Of a stretch of DNA of 64,000 bases, positions 8,025-19,697 are shown piece by piece. Below the pieces are notes generated by a model, which saw only the letters and a program-made list of their open reading frames with translations, was not told the origin of the DNA and did not search any database. The position numbers and the translations under genes were made by a program. Source of the DNA: Luteibacter rhizovicinus (GTDB taxonomy: Bacteria; Pseudomonadota; Gammaproteobacteria; Xanthomonadales; Rhodanobacteraceae); contig NZ_SMCS01000002.1 of the NCBI RefSeq assembly GCF_004342265.1, positions 248,001-312,000 on the forward strand, read 5' to 3'. Each line of letters opens with the position of its first letter. Positions within the stretch are counted from its first letter, which is position 1.

Positions 8025-9905
8025 ATGCCACCACACGCCCGAACGGGAGGTCGCCGACCGGAAGCCACGCCGCCGCTCGGTATCCGGGAACGGCTCGGCG
8101 CACTGGCCAACGTGCCACCGTTCATCAAGGCGGTCTGGCAGACCAGTCCCCTGCTGACCATCGAGAACCTGGTCCTGCGCTTGCTCCGCGCGCTGTTGCC
8201 GGTCATCACGCTCTTCGTCGGCAAGCTGATCATCGACGAGGTCACCCACCTCATCGCCGGAGGCGCGCGACACGGCAGCGCGAGCGAATGGCTGGCCAGC
8301 GGCGAACTCGACCGGCTCTGGTGGCTGCTCGCGCTGGAGTTTTCGCTGGCTGTGGTCGCCGATCTGCTGGGGCGTCTGGTTTCGCTGGTGGATTCGCTGC
8401 TCTCCGAACTCTATGCCAACGCGACCAGCGTCCAGCTGATGGAGCACGCCGCGAGCCTCGACCTGGAAGATTTCGAGGACGCCGACCTGCAGGACCGCCT
8501 CGATCGCGCGCGTCGCCAGGTGGCCGGTCGCAGCGGCCTGCTGTCGCAGCTATTCGGGCAGGCTCAGGACATGGTCACCATCGTCAGCTTTGCCGTGGGC
8601 CTGTTCGTCTATGCACCCTGGCTGATTCTGCTGCTGCTCGTGGCGCTGGTGCCTGCCTTCCTTGGCGAAATGCACTTCAACGCGAAGAGCTACGCCGTCA
8701 GCTACGAATGGACGCCGGAACGACGCGAACTCGACTACCTGCGCATGGTGGGAGCGAGCGCGCAGACCGCCAAGGAAGTGAAGAGCTTCGGCCTGAACAA
8801 CTTTCTGATTACCCGTTACCGCGAGCTGTCGAAAGCCATGTACGCGGCGAACCGGAAAATCGCCGTGCGCCGCGCCGCATGGGGCGGGCTTTTCACCACG
8901 ATAGGGACGCTTGGCTACTACGCCGCCTATGCACTGATCGCATGGCGTACGGCACGCGGCGAATTCACCATCGGCGACCTGACCTTCCTGTCCGCGTCGT
9001 TTCGCCGTTTGCGCACGCTTCTGGAAAGCCTGCTCGCCGGTTTCTCGCAACTCGCGGGACAGGCGCTGTATCTGGACGACCTGTTTTCGTTCTTCCGCAT
9101 CCAGCCCGAAATCCACTCGCCCGAGCACCCTCGCCCCTTTCCCGAACCCATTCTTGAAGGCTTCCGTTTCGAAGGCGTGGGTTTCCGCTATCCCGGCGCG
9201 GAGCGCTGGGCGGTACGCGATCTGTCCTTCACGCTTCGCGCGGGCGAAGTGCTTGCGCTGGTCGGCGAAAACGGTGCGGGCAAGACCACCATCGTGAAGT
9301 TACTCTCGCGACTGTACGACCCCGACGAAGGACGCATTCTTCTCGACGGTCATCCGCTCGCCGAATACGACCTGGAAGCACTGCGCTCGCACATCGGCGT
9401 CATCTTCCAGGACTTCGTACGCTATTACCTGCGCGCCTCGGAAAACATCGCGGTGGGCCGTATCGAAGCGCGCGACGACATGCAACGTATCGAGGACGCC
9501 GCCCAACGCAGCCTGGCCGACGACGTCATTGCACGACTACCCAAGGGCTACGAGCAAATGCTCGGCAAGCTGTTCAAGGGTGGCGTCGACCTGTCCGGCG
9601 GCGAGTGGCAGAAGATCGCGATCGCGCGGGCCTACATGCGGGCCGCTCCGCTGCTTGTACTGGACGAACCCACGGCAGCACTCGATGCCCGCTCGGAGTA
9701 TGGCGTTTTCCAGCGATTCAAGGATCTCTCCGAAGGAAAGACCGCAGTCATCATTTCGCATCGCTTCTCGACGGTTCGTATGGCCGATCGCATCCTGGTC
9801 CTCAGCCAGGGTCGAGTCGTCGAAGTCGGTAGCCACGACGAGCTTGTCGCCGCAGGCGGTTATTACGCCGAACTGTTCGAACTGCAGGCCGCGGGTTACC
9901 GCTGA
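8025..9905 (+). CDS. ABC exporter, fused membrane and ATPase domains
   Basis: 626 residues. ATG 8025 follows GGAAG. Residues about 25-360 form a type-1 exporter membrane domain with six helices. The ATPase domain carries Walker A GENGAGKTT at about 414, the signature LSGGE near 523 and Walker [13 protein letters not shown] near 543, with the H-loop in VIISHRFST. The domain order and single-chain build are those of a homodimeric MsbA-like exporter, but the substrate is unknown. The gene is alone on its strand: an AraC regulator lies on the left and the phosphate-type TBDR starts 168 bp on the right. Confidence 0.94.
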   Translation: MPPHARTGGRRPEATPPLGIRERLGALANVPPFIKAVWQTSPLLTIENLVLRLLRALLPVITLFVGKLIIDEVTHLIAGGARHGSASEWLASGELDRLWWLLALEFSLAVVADLLGRLVSLVDSLLSELYANATSVQLMEHAASLDLEDFEDADLQDRLDRARRQVAGRSGLLSQLFGQAQDMVTIVSFAVGLFVYAPWLILLLLVALVPAFLGEMHFNAKSYAVSYEWTPERRELDYLRMVGASAQTAKEVKSFGLNNFLITRYRELSKAMYAANRKIAVRRAAWGGLFTTIGTLGYYAAYALIAWRTARGEFTIGDLTFLSASFRRLRTLLESLLAGFSQLAGQALYLDDLFSFFRIQPEIHSPEHPRPFPEPILEGFRFEGVGFRYPGAERWAVRDLSFTLRAGEVLALVGENGAGKTTIVKLLSRLYDPDEGRILLDGHPLAEYDLEALRSHIGVIFQDFVRYYLRASENIAVGRIEARDDMQRIEDAAQRSLADDVIARLPKGYEQMLGKLFKGGVDLSGGEWQKIAIARAYMRAAPLLVLDEPTAALDARSEYGVFQRFKDLSEGKTAVIISHRFSTVRMADRILVLSQGRVVEVGSHDELVAAGGYYAELFELQAAGYR

Positions 9906-9969
9906 CGCGTAACGAAGAGGAGCCTGTATGCCGGATCCTCTTTGCCTCGAATGTAACGAACGCTAAGGT

Positions 9970-9998
9970 TCGTCACCGGACTGTCACGAAATATACAT
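9970..9998 (+). promoter_or_regulatory. Pho-box-like direct repeats
   Basis: Three 7-base units stand at 11-base intervals: TCGTCAC (9970), CTGTCAC (9981) and TATACAT (9992), split by CGGA and GAAA. The known PhoB box is two CTGTCAT-like 7-mers separated by four bases. The last pair ends 10 bases before a possible -10 element (AAGTAT, 10009-10014), the spacing expected when PhoB replaces -35 recognition. It lies upstream of a TBDR and phytase-like esterase, which fits a phosphate function. Confidence 0.6.
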
Positions 9999-10073
9999 TC
10001 CACGGTGAAAGTATCGCCCCCTTAACAGCCTGGCGCATTCGAGCGTCGGCGCTCGACTATCAGGGGACGATAC

Positions 10074-12413
10074 GTGCCGAAGAAATCATTGCTTGCGCTT
10101 GCACTGGGCGTGGCGCTATCGAGCACCGCATGGGCTACGCCCGGCGACAACACCGATATCGACACGGAGGGCACGGCGAAGCCGGCGGCTGTCGATCTCG
10201 ATGCCGTATCGGTCATCGGTACGGGCGAGTCGCGGCAAGTGCAGCGCGTGCGCCCGAAAGACCTGGCCGTTCTCCCGCCCGGCACCAGCGTGCAGAAAGC
10301 GCTCAACATTCTTCCGGGCGTCAATGCCCAGTCGGTCGACGCGCTCGGACTCAACGAGCAGTCGCTGACCATGAGTCTGCGCGGCTTCAACTCCACGCGC
10401 CTCGGCTACACGCTCGACGGCCTGCCGCTGGGCGATAGCGCGTACAACAATTACAACGGCCTCAGCATCAGCCGCGCGTTGATCTCCGAGAACCTGGGCG
10501 GCGCGGCACTTGCCGGCGGCATCGGCGCGCTGGGCACCGCATCCACCAGCGACCTCGGCGGCACGGTGGAATACACGACGAACGATCCCGCGAAAACGAT
10601 GGGCGCACGCGTCAGCCAGACCTTCGGCAGCGACAACACGAAACGCTCCTTCGCCCGTTTCGACACCGGCGAGCACAACGGATTCTCGATGTACTTGTCC
10701 GGCATGCGCGCCACGTCGGACCTCTGGGCCGACCAGGGCGCGTACAACGAATCGACCAACAAGCAGTTCAACGGCAAGGCCGTCTACGACTTCGCCGGTG
10801 GCCGCATCACCGGCTTCGTCGATACGTCGCGCATGTCGCAGGCCGACAATTTCTATCTCTCCAAGAGCGAACTCGCGCGCGGGCTTGGCTGGGACTGGGG
10901 CGGTTATGCACCGGACTGGAAAAAAGCCGTAGGCAAGGCGTACTGCAATACCGCGACGCTCAACGCCAGACTTTGCGACAGCAGCGGCGCCGACAAGGAT
11001 GCCGATGGCGCGTTCACCGCAGGCCAGATCCTCCGGTCGGACGACCTGTATTACCTCGCCGGCGACTTCTTTCCGACCGACACCGTCACGATCCACGCTC
11101 AGGTCTATCACCACGAAGACGCGGGCGAAGGGCACAACTGGACCAGCGGCACATGGTCCAACAAGAGTCAGCCGAACCAACTGCCAATCGCCTTCCGCAA
11201 TACGCTCTATGGCATCAACCGCACGGGCGCCGTACTGTCCGCGAGCTGGGACATCGGCATGCATCATGTCGAAGGCGGCGTCTGGTACGAAAACAATAAC
11301 AACACATCGTCCCGCTACACGAGCAACGTCACCGGCCCGCGCGATCTGAGCGGCCCGGCTACCGGCCAACCCGATAACGGCGTATTCGCGCAGCGAACGC
11401 TGGTGATCACACGCCAGGCCTATTTGCAGGACACGATGAAGTTCTTCGACGATCGCCTCACCGTCGACGCGGGCGTGAAAAGCCCGCACTCGTCGGCTGC
11501 CGCGCAGGCGCTGCCGGGCATCGCGAAAACACCCATCTCGCCCACGTCGAACAATCAGTTCTCGACGGGAAAACTGTCGGCCAGCAAGGCGTTCCTCCCC
11601 GAGGCCGGTGTGCGTTACCAGATTGCGAAAGGCCAGGAAGCGTTCGTCAGCTATGCCCAGAACATCGCCATGTTCCAGGGCGGCCCGAAGCTCGGCCCGC
11701 AAGCTGTCAGCCAGTCAACATGGGATAGCCAGGGCAATCTGCAACCGGAGAAATCGCGTTCGCTCGAAGCCGGATACCGGCTCGACCGCGACATGTACCA
11801 GGCCTCTGTCGCTGCATACAAAGTGCGCTTCGACAATCGCCTGCTCCAGTACAACCCATGCGACTCGCGCCAGGCCGTCGGCCCGACCTGCGGCAACCGC
11901 TTCTACAACGTCGGCGGCGTCGACAGCCACGGTGTGGAACTGACCTTCGTCTGGACGCCGGTCAGCTACTTCCAGTGGTACAACTCCGCGTCGTTCAATC
12001 GATCGACCTATGCGAACGATTATGTGCAAGGCGGTGTCGTCCAGCACACGAAGGGCAAGATCCAGACCGATACGCCGAACAAGCTCTTCGCAAGCGAAGT
12101 CAGCTTCAACTACGGTGGCTGGTTTGCCTCGCTACGCGGCAAATACACAGGCAAGCGTTATTACACATACACGAACGATCAGGGCTTCGGCGGCTTCACC
12201 GTGCTCGATCTCGGCGCGGGTTACGACTTCGGTGCCACGGAGTTCGCGAAAGACGTCCGGCTCTCGTTCAATGTCACGAACCTGACCGACAAACGCTACG
12301 CCAGCAACCTCGACTCAAGCGCGTTCCTGCCGAGCGATCCGGCCGGCACCACGTATGTGTTCCACGGGTCGGCACCGACTCAGGTGTTCGGCACGCTCGA
12401 CATCCGGTTCTGA
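10074..12413 (+). CDS. TonB-dependent receptor of predicted phosphate-starvation operon
   Basis: 779 residues from a GTG at 10074 preceded by AGGGGA. The signal peptide is MPKKSLLALALGVALSSTAWA. The plug (about residues 40-180) includes VSVIGTGESRQVQRV, LNILPGVNAQSVDALGLNEQS, LRGFNSTRLGYTLDGLPLGD and a glycine-rich ASTSDLGGTVEYTT segment. A beta barrel ends in LDIRF, with the near-terminal LSFNVTNLTDKRYAS typical of the family. The next gene starts 2 bp after the stop, suggesting coupled translation with the phytase-like enzyme. With the Pho-box-like site this suggests uptake of a phosphorylated compound. The ligand is inferred only. Confidence 0.92.
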   Translation: MPKKSLLALALGVALSSTAWATPGDNTDIDTEGTAKPAAVDLDAVSVIGTGESRQVQRVRPKDLAVLPPGTSVQKALNILPGVNAQSVDALGLNEQSLTMSLRGFNSTRLGYTLDGLPLGDSAYNNYNGLSISRALISENLGGAALAGGIGALGTASTSDLGGTVEYTTNDPAKTMGARVSQTFGSDNTKRSFARFDTGEHNGFSMYLSGMRATSDLWADQGAYNESTNKQFNGKAVYDFAGGRITGFVDTSRMSQADNFYLSKSELARGLGWDWGGYAPDWKKAVGKAYCNTATLNARLCDSSGADKDADGAFTAGQILRSDDLYYLAGDFFPTDTVTIHAQVYHHEDAGEGHNWTSGTWSNKSQPNQLPIAFRNTLYGINRTGAVLSASWDIGMHHVEGGVWYENNNNTSSRYTSNVTGPRDLSGPATGQPDNGVFAQRTLVITRQAYLQDTMKFFDDRLTVDAGVKSPHSSAAAQALPGIAKTPISPTSNNQFSTGKLSASKAFLPEAGVRYQIAKGQEAFVSYAQNIAMFQGGPKLGPQAVSQSTWDSQGNLQPEKSRSLEAGYRLDRDMYQASVAAYKVRFDNRLLQYNPCDSRQAVGPTCGNRFYNVGGVDSHGVELTFVWTPVSYFQWYNSASFNRSTYANDYVQGGVVQHTKGKIQTDTPNKLFASEVSFNYGGWFASLRGKYTGKRYYTYTNDQGFGGFTVLDLGAGYDFGATEFAKDVRLSFNVTNLTDKRYASNLDSSAFLPSDPAGTTYVFHGSAPTQVFGTLDIRF

Positions 12414-12415
12414 GG

Positions 12416-13936
12416 ATGCGCGCGATCGCTACGATCATCGTTTCGCTTGCGCTCCTGCCGGCCCTTGCGGCCGGCGTGGAGTTCGACACACCGCACCTGA
12501 GCAACGCGAAGGGGAAGGTGTCGGTCGAACTGGGCGGACAACGCTTCGTGAACCATGGACTCGTCGGTGCGGGCCGCCTTTCGGCAGGCACCGTCGACTT
12601 CATGGGTGACACGCTGGGCTCGTTCTCTTCGCTCGCCATCGACAAGGCGAGCTGGAAACGCGTCGGCGATCGGTACGAAGGGGTGATGTGGACGCTCCCC
12701 GATCGCGGCCGCAACGATCCCGGCGCGGGCCTGTTTTACGACTACGCCGCGCGGCTGCATCGCTTCCGCGTACGCGTCAGGCCGTATACGGGCAAGCCGC
12801 TTCCCGCCGATCGCGCGTCGCAACGCCAGGTCGACATCGTCCCCGATGGCGGGATCGAGTTGCGCGACTTCAGGGGTACGCCGTTCACCGGCGCGGACCC
12901 CGGCACAGGCACCCTCGTCGAGAACGGCATCACGCTACCCTCTCCGGCTAGCGGCACCGGCGCGGGGAAAGTATCGATCGACGCCGAGTCCCTGCAGTTC
13001 ACGCAGGACGGCGGCTTCTATGTCGGCGACGAGTATTCGGCCAGCGTGTTCCATTTCGACCCGAAGGGCCGGTTGACCGGCGTGATCGTACCGCCCGCCG
13101 CCGTGACGCCGCGTCGCGACGGGCGTATCGATTTCAACTCGCTCACACCGCCGCAGACGGGGCGACGCAACAACCAGGGCGTCGAAGGCATGTCGCTTTC
13201 GCCCCATGGCACACGCCTCTTCGTCGCCTTGCAAAGCGCACTGTTGCAGGACTCCGCTACCGGTGACGCGAGCGGACGCGCCGACACGCGAGTCATTGTC
13301 TACGACGTCGCCAACAATCCCGTACCGGCACAACCCATCGCGCACTACGTCGTCCAGCTTCCGACCTACAACGACGCAGGCAAAGGCAAGCCAGCCAACC
13401 GGACCGCGGCACAAAGCGAAATCCGCGCGATCAACGGGCATCAGTTCCTGATGCTCTCGCGCGACGGGAATGGGTTGGGTACCGACAACGACAAGCCCAT
13501 CGTCTACAAGAGTGTCCTTCTCGTCGATACGGACGGCGCCACCAATCTTGCCGGCACAGCGTATGAAACCGATACGACGCCCGTGCTGCGCGCAGCCGAC
13601 AGCATCGTATTGAAGGCCGATATCGTTCCCGCGCACTGGGTCGAACTCATCAATATGCTTGCGCCGGCGCAGCTTGGCCGCTTCGGGATGAACGTCGCGA
13701 CCACACCGAAGAACCAGCCAACGACGCTTTCCGAAAAATGGGAAGCCATGGACCTCGTGTCCGTGAGAGATGCGTCACACCCGGACGACTATCTGTTGTT
13801 CGTCGGTAACGACAATGACTTTATCGCTCGCCACTGTGTCATGCAGGGACAGGCCTGCGATTCGACCTTCGATAACGACAACATGATTCTGGTGTACCGC
13901 CTTACCTTGCCCACGATGCAACGTAGCGGTCGCTAG
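12416..13936 (+). CDS. Secreted phytase-like esterase
   Basis: 506 residues from ATG 12416, with signal peptide MRAIATIIVSLALLPALAAG. The body matches the family called esterase-like activity of phytase (Pfam phytase-like beta propeller). Recognisable pieces are YEGVMWTLPDRGRNDPG, IDAESLQFTQDGGFYVGDEYS, GVEGMSLSPHGTRLFVALQSALLQD and the acidic DYLLFVGNDNDFI near the end. Members are exported propeller proteins proposed to hydrolyse phosphoesters; some pair with TBDRs. It lies 2 bp after the TBDR stop and 31 bp before the next secreted protein. Phytate as substrate is a hypothesis. Confidence 0.86.
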   Translation: MRAIATIIVSLALLPALAAGVEFDTPHLSNAKGKVSVELGGQRFVNHGLVGAGRLSAGTVDFMGDTLGSFSSLAIDKASWKRVGDRYEGVMWTLPDRGRNDPGAGLFYDYAARLHRFRVRVRPYTGKPLPADRASQRQVDIVPDGGIELRDFRGTPFTGADPGTGTLVENGITLPSPASGTGAGKVSIDAESLQFTQDGGFYVGDEYSASVFHFDPKGRLTGVIVPPAAVTPRRDGRIDFNSLTPPQTGRRNNQGVEGMSLSPHGTRLFVALQSALLQDSATGDASGRADTRVIVYDVANNPVPAQPIAHYVVQLPTYNDAGKGKPANRTAAQSEIRAINGHQFLMLSRDGNGLGTDNDKPIVYKSVLLVDTDGATNLAGTAYETDTTPVLRAADSIVLKADIVPAHWVELINMLAPAQLGRFGMNVATTPKNQPTTLSEKWEAMDLVSVRDASHPDDYLLFVGNDNDFIARHCVMQGQACDSTFDNDNMILVYRLTLPTMQRSGR

Positions 13937-13967
13937 TACACGGAACCCAACCAGCGAGGCAACGCGC

Positions 13968-14852
13968 ATGAAGAAGTCGTTCGTCAGTACGTTCGTCGTG
14001 GCCGCCGTTCTCGGCACCGCCTGCGCCCATGCAGCCAATGCACCGGCCGCGGTCGACAGCAAGGAATACAAGGTACTTCTCGATCCCTCGCGCTTCGCGA
14101 GCAATCCGTCGTCGGCTGCAAGCAGCCTGCTTGGCGACCTTTCCGTCCGTCTTTCGCAACTGGCCTTCGACAAGACCGTGTCGGGCGGCTTTTCGGTGGA
14201 CAAGCGGGATAACGTCGCCTACTACGACACGGCGGGCACCTGCGTCGTGCGCGGCAATAACTACGCGGTCCGGACGCGCAGCGGCGGCGACTCCGACATC
14301 CAGTTCAAGTTCTCGCATCCGGACGAAGAACTTTCGGCGGCAACGCTGGTTACCGGCACGGGCAAGAACAAGAGCACGAAGCTGGAGACCGACGTCGGCC
14401 CGGCCAGCCTTGTCTATTCGCATTCCACCAAACAGGACCCGGCCACGACCGGTGCCCCGACCACCGTCGCCGACCTGATTACGCAGTTCTCGGGTGCCTC
14501 GACGCTGTCCTCATACAAGACGCAGGCACTGGTACCCGTCAACGGCCTGGACATCGTCCAGCAGGAATACACCGGACCGGTGTCCGATCTGGGACAGTCC
14601 GATGCGGAGTTCACGCTGACGCTGTGGTACGTCGGCGGCAGCAGCGCTCCCGCTCTTGCCGAGCTGTCCTACAAAGTGAAAGCCGACTCCAGCGCCTATT
14701 TCACGACGCCCGTGCTCACACGCTCGCAGACCCTGCTCAAGGCAATGAGTACGCTCGACGGCTGGATGCTCAGCCCGTCGACGACGAAGACAGCGTGGGT
14801 ATACAACTATCGCTCGGCCGCGTATCCGAACGGATTCTGCAGCGGCACCTGA
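13968..14852 (+). CDS. Secreted protein of unknown function, possibly CYTH/TTM-like
   Basis: 294 residues with signal peptide MKKSFVSTFVVAAVLGTACAHA. I do not recognise a family with certainty. The order NVAYYDTAGTCVVRGNNYAVRTRSG, followed by IQFKFSHPDEELS and LETDVG, resembles the strand pattern YYDT...L...G..LR.R...K of CYTH (triphosphate tunnel) proteins. The usual N-terminal ExExK motif is absent: the corresponding place reads SKEYKVLLD. If the fold is right, binding of a phosphate-rich ligand would fit the operon. It follows the phytase-like gene by 31 bp, likely the third gene of the operon. Confidence 0.75.
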   Translation: MKKSFVSTFVVAAVLGTACAHAANAPAAVDSKEYKVLLDPSRFASNPSSAASSLLGDLSVRLSQLAFDKTVSGGFSVDKRDNVAYYDTAGTCVVRGNNYAVRTRSGGDSDIQFKFSHPDEELSAATLVTGTGKNKSTKLETDVGPASLVYSHSTKQDPATTGAPTTVADLITQFSGASTLSSYKTQALVPVNGLDIVQQEYTGPVSDLGQSDAEFTLTLWYVGGSSAPALAELSYKVKADSSAYFTTPVLTRSQTLLKAMSTLDGWMLSPSTTKTAWVYNYRSAAYPNGFCSGT

Positions 14853-14864
14853 TGCGACAGCCGC

Positions 14865-14896
14865 GGACATGTGGGAGCTTGCGCTCCTACATGTCC
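14865..14896. repeat. Palindromic repeat / possible bidirectional terminator
   Basis: Arms GGACATGTGGGAGC and GCTCCTACATGTCC pair over 14 bp (one wobble) around a 4-base loop. It sits between convergent genes and overlaps the last codons of the DUF4239 gene. The core GGGAGC...GCTCCTAC is shared with repeats at 29758, 39556 and 54381. Confidence 0.75.
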
Positions 14897-15672
14897 GTCA
14901 TGGCGGCCCGCGCGTCGATCACTGCTTGCTGCGATACGCGAACCGCTCCGCGCGTTGGCTGATCGAGGTCGATAATCAGCATGCCGGCCAGCGTCAGCAA
15001 CACGAACAGCATCGTCGTCGACCAGCGCATCCGCCCTTTTTCCCAACCGACCAGCGTCGCCACCACTACCGCATAAAGCAGTAGCAGCACGAGCACGAGC
15101 ACGCGACGCGGCACATGGGCGGCACGGGCCGCCTTCCGCGACGCCGCCAGATCGAATGTCTCGTTGACGGTCGATATCACCGAAGCGGCAAGTGCCGTGC
15201 CACGAACGGGCTCCAGTCCACCAGTCATGGTGGACCAGATGCGTGTCTGCAAGGCACTGGTGCGGGCGTAACTGGCCGCTTCCGCCTCGTCGGTCGGCGC
15301 ACTGCCATAGACGACGCGCTCGTCCGCATAGGTTCGCAGCAAGGGATTGAGTGCCTCTCGGGTATCGGCATCCAGCAGCTGCGTTCGCAGCCATGTGGTC
15401 CCGATCGCATTGCCTTCGGCGACGACCAGCTCGCGACGCGCGTCGTACCGATTCAGACTCATCGAGAACGTAAAGCTCACCAGTAGCGCAAGCAGTCCGA
15501 GGACGGTCGTCAGCGTAAATCCGTCCGAAGCCGGCTCCGTGGCGTCCGCCCCGCGAAGGCGGCTGCGCGCCAGCAGGCCGAGCTCCCTGGCTGCAACAAG
15601 AGCCGCCAGCACCACCAGGCCGAAAAGCCAGAGCGCCCAGTCGATATCCGCACCGTCGCTTCCTGGCATCAA
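14887..15672 (-). CDS. DUF4239 (bestrophin-like) membrane protein
   Basis: 261 residues. Two hydrophobic segments flank the N-terminal part (WALWLFGLVVLAALVAARELGLL, then TTVLGLLALLVSFTFSMSLNRYDARRELVVAEGNAIGTTWLR), and two more lie near the C-terminus (VLVLVLLLLYAVVVATLVG; MLFVLLTLAGMLIID). The motif FSMSLNRYDARRxLVVxEANAIGTTWLR is the signature of DUF4239. Function unknown; the family is sometimes called bestrophin-like because of fold prediction. Its start overlaps the stop of the upstream lipoprotein gene, so the two are cotranscribed. Confidence 0.88.
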   Translation of the reverse strand: MMPGSDGADIDWALWLFGLVVLAALVAARELGLLARSRLRGADATEPASDGFTLTTVLGLLALLVSFTFSMSLNRYDARRELVVAEGNAIGTTWLRTQLLDADTREALNPLLRTYADERVVYGSAPTDEAEAASYARTSALQTRIWSTMTGGLEPVRGTALAASVISTVNETFDLAASRKAARAAHVPRRVLVLVLLLLYAVVVATLVGWEKGRMRWSTTMLFVLLTLAGMLIIDLDQPTRGAVRVSQQAVIDARAAMTDM

Positions 15673-16148: not shown

Positions 16149-16661
16149 ACAGTAAGAGTTGCCTCCCCCAGAACTGCCGGCCAGCGCAGTTGTTCGGGTC
16201 CGCCCCCGGTAGAAGTACCTAGGCTGCCCGTTGGCATCGATTTAGCACGATCCAGTCGCAACCTTCCGCGAGACGGATCAAAGCCTTCGGGAAGGAGGCC
16301 CGGGACGTATTATTTTGATCTTTTTCTTATGCCATTTGGCACCCCCGTCCGGGCGCCCGGCGCGGCAGCGCAAGAGGTCTTTAGATCGACATAAATACGG
16401 CATTTATCCCTACAAACTGTTGCGTAGCAACACGTCGAAAAGACGTCTGGACGGCCGTACTTTCTTGTCGCGATGCGGCTAGACACAAACAAATTTGTGC
16501 TGTAAACCATCTCACTAGCCTATTTGGATCGTGACAAATAGGTGTTTCACAGGTGACGGTTCCGGGTACGCGCTTTGGCAGCGAGGGGGAAGTCATGCCT
16601 TTCGTTTCCGCGGCTCGGCTACCGCATCGTTTCGGGGGCTTTGACTTACATCGGGGAAGGC
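16149..16661. promoter_or_regulatory. Long AT-rich leader with serial dyad symmetries
   Basis: No gene is supported in these 513 bases before the Oar-like receptor; base composition is clearly lower in GC than around it from about 16300. Five short inverted repeats follow one another: ATAAAT-5-ATTTAT (16391-16407), TGTTGC-3-GCAACA (16418-16432), ACGTC-5-GACGT (16432-16446), CACAAA-4-TTTGTG (16484-16499) and CCTATTTG-8-CAAATAGG (16519-16542). They may be operator sites or hairpins of a structured leader. Confidence 0.6.
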
Positions 16662-19600: not shown

Positions 19601-19697
19601 AGGCGATTCGCCGAACACGCCGAATCCGCAGTACCGCATCCCGCTGTATACGCAGGACCCGCGCTATGCACGTCTGACGGTTAGCTACGACTTCTGA
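16662..19697 (+). CDS. Oar-like TonB-dependent receptor with carboxypeptidase-regulatory-like N-domain
   Basis: 1011 residues from ATG 16662, which follows GGGGAAGG. The signal peptide is MNKKLLIRRHALALAVATCFGAATGAYA. Residues about 33-105 form a beta-sandwich domain (TGNLYGTVPAAAGETVTIES, LPLGTYTVTLRRDG) as in Oar/OmpA-related TBDRs. The plug follows (DSRTVITSEQLARLPLGRSAEAIARLAPGV, then YGAIDQQEVYTGGYSAQYGRSDGGVIS). The barrel ends with an aromatic residue (VSYDF). Large receptors of this type in Xanthomonadales import oligopeptides or glycans or are linked to export of proteases; the ligand here is unknown. A strong terminator follows. Confidence 0.93.
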   Translation: MNKKLLIRRHALALAVATCFGAATGAYAQSTTGNLYGTVPAAAGETVTIESTNGLKREVPVDATGHYVANQLPLGTYTVTLRRDGNVVDQRKDIALRVGTSTDVSFAAAAAGATAATDLGGVTVTGTSLPPIDVTSVDSRTVITSEQLARLPLGRSAEAIARLAPGVVNNGGGFTSDTNRSVASFGGSAATENAYYINGFNTTDPLNGLGGLQLPYGAIDQQEVYTGGYSAQYGRSDGGVISQVGKRGSNEWHFGAQVLWEPGFARASNKDLYYTSPPKSQVAGTLYQPKSQNETWTTTVSAYAGGPLIKDKLFFFVAAEFERKQQKNVNAVDNTSTPASDNRFNAPRWYSKLDWNITDSNILEFTGASDKREGSGTRYKYNYTDRTRGAVIGPVDDTKTGGDLYLAKYTGYITDDLTVSAMYGEMKTKNYDVPGNYDPNLTRVTGITSQNPALNGGTPIGNSQVTSLANPGRSNKQTNFRFDVSYHIGDHTIAVGVDNMKSEANDQGTFDPGPGYTWNYRVTNTPNQPISSGSASGANFVPAPALFPNGAGGYYVGRNISNNSVSVRSDQRAQYIEDKWQLTDRWLLSLGLRNDQFTDYNPSGQAFITQTKPQWAPRLGASWDVYGDGSFKVFANAGRYYLGLPLNPATGAASGYVSTQQYYTYSGIAADGTPTGLTQMSGVVSANNSYGISPDPRTVTAKNLKAENQDEFIIGFDKVIGKNWIAGMKATQRKLNNAIDDYCQIDRVQAKATALGYNVVPNNSCYLINAGASNTFTLVNPAGTVYEVPLSRDEMGFQQLKRKYYSLETFVEHTFDGTWYGKFDYVFSRSYGNTEGQVRSDLRQSGASASEDWDNAQIMENAGGVQNNDHTHVFKAYGYWQVAPEWQLSGNLAAVSGSPEICLGYYGPDHSDPVSYGNAYHFCDGKPSPPGSHGRLPWTFQLDLGVTYRPTFADEKLAFSANVFNVLNQQRATFRNPNKEGDSPNTPNPQYRIPLYTQDPRYARLTVSYDF

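Follow-up and report, generated by a model that had tools for sequence, protein, structure and literature searches.

The 64,000-nucleotide window analysed here (contig NZ_SMCS01000002.1, positions 248,001 to 312,000) comes from the 4.47 Mb genome of Luteibacter rhizovicinus and carries on its + strand three consecutive genes whose products all begin with a signal peptide recognisable by eye. The first (10074..12413, GTG start) encodes a TonB-dependent receptor (TBDR) with plug (PF07715, 33.1 bits against a cut-off of 23.9) and barrel (PF00593, 128.5 bits against 27) domains. The ATG of the second (12416..13936) lies 2 bp after the TBDR stop, and its product is a phytase-like protein (PF13449, 118.2 bits against a gathering cut-off of 27.6; E 8.6e-34) that was modelled as a beta-propeller. 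The third gene (13968..14852), a further 31 bp downstream, encodes a protein here called U3, to which we assign, from a structural model, a fold resembling that of the CYTH/triphosphate tunnel (TTM) proteins. The 168 bp gap before the TBDR gene holds a Pho-box-like array (9970..9998, + strand) made up of TCGTCAC (9970-9976), CTGTCAC (9981-9987) and TATACAT (9992-9998) at 11-base steps. A preliminary description of this DNA had pointed to the 7-mers, to a phytase-like gene 2 bp behind the receptor gene and to a secreted protein of no known family as third gene; the 7-mers are present where it placed them, the gap and the PF13449 match are confirmed, and U3, which indeed has no significant Pfam or NCBIfam match, can now be given a predicted fold. 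We put at about 75% the probability that these genes form a PhoB-activated operon for scavenging phosphorus compounds.

The arrangement is conserved among relatives. U3 was found in ten of 117 sampled genomes of the family, one copy being a fragment, and all nine full-length copies (that of L. rhizovicinus included) stand in the order TBDR-phytase-U3; a class-wide sample gave U3 in five of 274 genomes, again including its own. A scan of genome contigs, some from strains shared with the family sample, confirmed 115 relatives in Rhodanobacteraceae, many other gammaproteobacteria and a few cyanobacteria, and 80 loci were kept. Judged by eye on the N-terminus, 51 of these carry exported-type U3 and 29 do not. 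A profile search of the open reading frames of the 80 loci recovered the order TBDR-phytase-U3 in 12, U3-phytase in 14, phytase-U3 in 10 and a divergent phytase-like gene in one, and a phytase-like neighbour is present at 37 of the 51 exported-type loci as against 0 of the 29 others. The alignment and the tree built from it contain 78 rows, namely the window and 77 of the 80 loci (L043, L093 and L098 were left out), split into 49 exported and 29 other sequences. In the tree, where the named relative closest to the window by U3 is a Luteibacter, the TBDR-bearing loci form a single group with full support and the U3-phytase loci a single group with 89% support; two changes are needed to account for the phytase-U3 loci. 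That the U3/phytase-like pair is retained while its order varies between lineages indicates a functional link between the two proteins.

Two side observations concern this distribution. Only a 53-residue C-terminal stretch of U3 remains in a genus mate (G112, L027:5530-5688), where the same 14-kb stretch has no TBDR or phytase-like match and the genome has no TBDR match at E<=1e-100; the stretch is probably a deletion remnant of the operon. Among the non-exported loci, one or two short genes resembling a split chromate (ChrA) transporter adjoin U3 in six of the 19 that were inspected by eye (L100:3336-4543, L105:5818-6950, L106:5680-6953, L107:5818-6983, L108:5581-6150 and L110:5821-6971), a cytoplasmic TTM-like protein there being paired with what looks like an ion transporter.

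A PHO box has been defined as at least two 11-bp direct repeats, each of seven conserved bases plus four (PMC4415409), and the predicted array before the operon has this form. Its presence before orthologous operons is a stronger test than any statistic drawn from the window, and conservation there had been set beforehand as a test that the repeat should pass. Pho-box-like arrays do stand before the TBDR in orthologous loci: when the promoters of L. rhizovicinus and eight relatives were compared by eye, the relatives showed arrays such as CTGTCATCAAGATTTCAT, and the closest relative (L037) has retained the GTCAC, GTCAC and TACAT units between differing flanks. For each locus we also took the best Pho score in a stretch reaching from 300 bp upstream of the first gene to 60 bp into it and set it against random stretches drawn from that locus, at a level of 0.02 per locus that is uncorrected for locus number or relatedness. 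This box test was passed in 11 of 12 TBDR-phytase-U3 loci, in nine of 14 U3-phytase loci and in five of the 44 loci remaining outside the three orders, one of these five (L082) having the divergent phytase-like gene; several loci are near-copies, so that fewer independent lineages are represented than the counts suggest. Of the twelve only L044 failed; its box, at 944, lies just inside an over-extended open reading frame and is the best + strand site of the locus. In L037 it was a site at 886, within the upstream gene, that passed; the true array, at 1011, ranks second in that locus. The genome itself encodes PhoB, with one match over the curated cut-off, and its pstS gene is preceded by a Pho-box-like site.

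Within the window the array ranks first of 127,966 positions by a weighted score, for which we applied our own weights to the E. coli consensus, and first again by the unweighted score. Its weighted score of 20.0 lies inside the range of 17.5-20.5 given by the top-scoring sites upstream of ten pstS genes from the family. A matrix built from nine boxes before the U3-phytase loci of other genera ranked it second, and a matrix combining these nine with the ten pstS boxes ranked it third. A genome-wide search with the full Pho consensus was uninformative (10 matches, as against 6 for the reversed control), the pattern being too strict to list the window array. In a three-unit scan of the window the array ties for first place with a - strand site at 16557. 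The latter belongs to a second three-unit 11-bp GTCAC-like array (16531-16557, - strand) some 105 bp before the ATG (16662) of a + strand TBDR-like gene whose end is at 19697. This second array points the wrong way to serve that gene and may be fortuitous.

The surroundings of the operon were also considered. An ATP-binding cassette (ABC) transporter gene precedes the array on the + strand and ends at 9905. It was rejected as an operon member by reading the DNA of relatives, with no scan of neighbours: by eye, it is common to the window and L037, and seven of the eight relatives have another gene with a sensor-kinase-like tail or, in L019, other sequence upstream of the TBDR. Downstream of U3 lies a bestrophin-like gene in convergent orientation. 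A sigma-70 scan of 9850-15100 found no promoter, which is neutral as regards a PhoB-type promoter, and a scan found no terminator-like site between U3 and 15100.

Sequence searches left U3 unplaced. It has no Pfam match and no significant NCBIfam or PDB sequence match; the 78 U3 sequences gave only weak, unrelated Pfam matches (best E 0.019), CYTH being absent from the 17 families matched by any member at E<=1, and single-sequence PDB searches reached a best E of 0.49, with no match of weight. A multicystatin match to the U3 profile (PDB, E 0.012) was rejected as covering a short stretch. The AlphaFold (AF2) model, by comparison, is of high confidence (pLDDT 94.2, pTM 0.90) and has nine strands; the TTM fold is a tunnel barrel of eight. 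A Foldseek search with this model returned nine PDB chains at E<=0.001. They belong to six entries of human thiamine triphosphatase, GBAA_1210, jujuba adenylyl cyclase and class IV adenylate cyclase, all of them CYTH/TTM proteins to judge by their titles. Next came Mediator head subunits (E from 1.3e-3), and Pct1, an RNA triphosphatase of the fold, stood at rank 49 (E 0.53).

The conserved residues of U3, numbered here as mature numbering + 22, point in the same direction. K35, D87, R102, R104, K114, D119, K138, W220, E232, K274, T275 and Y279 are invariant in the 78 rows, and E33 is kept in 75. In the secondary structure of the model the members of the pairs E33/K35, R102/R104, K138/E140 and E232/S234 lie two apart within a strand, as expected of residues facing one side. 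By motif order and without superposition, E33/K35, R102/R104, K114 and E232 would correspond to E4/K6, R52/R54, K76 and E169 of AtTTM3, a protein whose residue roles are described and in which E169 is the metal glutamate of site 1 and E2 and E171 are the partners of site 2 (PMC4641920). On this assignment the site-1 metal glutamate, the paired arginines and the lysine are all invariant (E232, R102, R104 and K114). The ExExK motif itself is absent: the 49 exported rows have S/T-x-E-x-K, and in the 29 others the first glutamate is replaced by Y (21) or S (8). Taken together, the pattern of glutamates and basic residues suggests that site 1 and the basic grip are kept and that the water-activating site is remodelled. 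Two cysteines set the exported proteins apart, Cys92 (49 of 49 rows versus 0 of the 29 others) and one in the last eight residues (48 of 49 versus 1 of 29); they are likely to form a disulfide, which would fit export.

The receptor has relatives in similar company. Neither it nor the phytase-like protein nor U3 has an NCBIfam match over the cut-off, and matches to the TBDR at E<=1e-100 occur in 46 of the 117 family genomes. Eleven regions were chosen from this match list and inspected, with Pfam run on neighbouring genes, and six have phosphoesterase-type genes within about two genes of the TBDR: a phytase-like gene (L231), GDPD (L234, L237 and L241), type I phosphodiesterase/nucleotide pyrophosphatase (L235, L237 and L238) and alkaline phosphatase (L235 and L237). 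Among the other five, just one neighbouring gene in all was analysed with Pfam (in L233, an alpha/beta hydrolase), and absence of such genes there is not implied. A Pho score of at least 18 precedes the TBDR in four of the eleven, a count for which no null was run. The receptor family thus tends to be associated with the breakdown of phosphoesters, a tendency of which the phytase-like/U3 combination is one form. Separately, a second gene of L233 resembles alkaline phosphatases by eye, and L235 (G000:C7:126000-138000) lies in the L. rhizovicinus genome itself, where a paralogous TBDR, 57% identical, adjoins an alkaline phosphatase (PF00245) with a type I phosphodiesterase/nucleotide pyrophosphatase (PF01663) one gene further.

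Computation has thus provided a gene order and its conservation, Pho-type arrays before orthologues, a predicted fold and invariant tunnel-type residues for U3, and a recurrent U3/phytase-like pairing. According to the model that we propose, phosphate shortage would lead phosphorylated PhoB (PhoB~P) to bind the 11-bp array at 9970-9998 and to switch on the three exported proteins. The TBDR would take across the outer membrane a phosphorylated compound whose size or scarcity puts it beyond the reach of porins, and the phytase-like beta-propeller, if its family name is a guide, would cleave phosphoesters in the periplasm. The basic tunnel of U3 may hold triphosphate- or polyphosphate-like chains and either hydrolyse them or pass them to its phytase-like partner, and the phosphate released would enter via Pst. 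The preliminary description had likewise read the locus as an outer-membrane organophosphate scavenging unit, and that reading is supported by the arrays before orthologues, the PhoB match, the pstS site, the gene order and the phosphoesterase genes at six of 11 TBDR loci.

Several observations weigh on the other side. An hhalign comparison of U3 with 24 CYTH proteins of the order gave a probability of 0.1, that is, no kinship, and the TM-scores of the fold matches are moderate (0.3-0.5, with a root-mean-square deviation of 7-8 Angstrom). Because profile comparison with CYTH gave nothing, kinship rests on fold and motif order; what we claim is a resemblance in predicted fold and probable working, not plain family membership, and catalysis is no more than a possibility. 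Two of the three glutamates of metal site 2 are replaced in U3 (S31 and S234), E33 alone remaining; position 31 is S in 46 and T in three of the 49 exported rows, and the glutamate at 234 is replaced in all 49. The model of the phytase-like protein is of medium quality (pLDDT 75.6), and a fold search with it matched generic propellers only. Fourteen of the 51 exported-type loci have no phytase-like neighbour in the stretch examined, some of the contigs being short. Only two of the ten phytase-U3 loci passed the box test, and its null is noisy, L077 and L084 having obtained 0.032 and 0.0 for an identical site. A matrix built from the ten pstS boxes of the family ranked the window array only 243, and the matrices built from other sites are therefore not in agreement. 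Finally, a two-unit pattern with two mismatches allowed was found once in the 64-kb window, as against 0.75 expected from 100 shuffles, 51 of which held at least one match; in a stretch of 64 kb the repeat pattern by itself does not exceed chance.

The strongest competing explanation accepts the phosphate-regulated operon and holds that U3 is a non-catalytic periplasmic binder of polyanions such as phytate, polyphosphate or nucleotides, serving the phytase-like enzyme. The glutamates lost in U3 help to build metal site 2 in TTM hydrolases (PMC4641920), and replacement of the first glutamate of ExExK and the second of the C-terminal ExE in all 49 exported rows, combined with invariance of the basic K35, R102, R104, K114, K138 and K274 and of the site-1-type E232, speaks for a binder. 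However, a different metal site could be built from acids that are invariant, D87 and D119 throughout and E140 and D142 in exported rows, and Vtc4p, a TTM protein without the acidic patch, is still an enzyme (PMC4641920). We give this explanation as a whole somewhat under even odds, and regard the choice between enzyme and binding protein for U3 as about evenly balanced. That the TBDR imports a siderophore or vitamin, with the phytase-like and U3 genes as incidental passengers, is improbable. In its favour, the best NCBIfam match of the receptor is a siderophore receptor subfamily, far under the cut-off (117.5 bits against 223.5); the conserved order, the Pho-type boxes and the phosphoesterase genes near related TBDRs all argue otherwise. 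Slimmer still is the chance that the 11-bp repeats are a random match and the operon lies outside the Pho regulon, as the expected number per window and the rank with the pstS matrix might suggest, since the place of the array on the right strand of the 168-bp gap before the TBDR, together with 11-bp GTCA-type arrays before orthologous operons, raises it above chance.

A phosphorus-scavenging operon of this kind has parallels. The Pus loci of Flavobacterium johnsoniae contain TonB-dependent transporters (TBDTs) that are induced by phosphate depletion and lie beside phosphatases, and the TBDT Fjoh_1368 lies beside a 3-phytase (PMC8115612). Both systems encode a TonB-dependent transporter with phosphoesterase or phytase genes; of the two marks of a Pus-like unit, such co-localisation and induction by phosphate depletion, the first is observed here and the second is predicted. 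They differ in that the former belong to Bacteroidetes and, in the accessible part of that account, no PF13449/U3 pairing is mentioned (PMC8115612), whereas the third part of the Luteibacter system is an exported protein of predicted TTM fold. A Nodularia protein annotated as ‘esterase-like activity of phytase family protein’ is induced by phosphorus limitation (PMC9846622) and so shares both family annotation and phosphate-limitation context with the phytase-like protein, although the Luteibacter gene sits in an operon with a TBDR and U3. As a caution against assuming such regulation elsewhere, a study of three pseudomonads found no evidence that their phytases are under PhoBR control (PMC5082522). 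With the CYTH/TTM proteins (YgiF, AtTTM3, human thiamine triphosphatase and class IV adenylate cyclase) U3 shares its predicted fold and the order of E-x-K on strand 1, R-x-R, K, E and a C-terminal K. It differs from these enzymes in being exported (by eye), in its two conserved cysteines, in lacking the first glutamate of ExExK and the second of the C-terminal ExE, in its detectable profile kinship, which is nil, and in its length (272 residues versus 175-211 in the matched chains).

What is new here is U3 itself, as the third member of the unit, and the fact that it is widely paired with PF13449 proteins, often behind Pho boxes. A literature search whose coverage excluded most subscription journals found no paper on U3 or on this pairing, and the titles and abstract openings of papers joining the triphosphate tunnel with the Pho regulon describe no exported bacterial TTM protein. 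A bolder and rather doubtful extension is that the triphosphate-tunnel fold has an exported branch, founded by U3, and that U3, its phytase-like partner and the TBDR form a dedicated system for consuming extracellular polyphosphate or another triphosphate-bearing compound. In such a system the receptor would thread the chain in, U3, its second metal site remodelled, would bind and trim it in the periplasm, and the short products would be left to the phytase-like enzyme to finish. Marine bacteria and algae consume exogenous polyphosphate, and access to the chain and its import are called unknown in a 2026 paper (PMC13318637); the operon described here is a concrete candidate, with testable parts, for such access and transport. 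More broadly, an exported family that Pfam names in none of its 78 members gains a predicted fold and a phosphate context, and units of TBDT and phosphatase would extend from Bacteroidetes to a relative within the Xanthomonadales.

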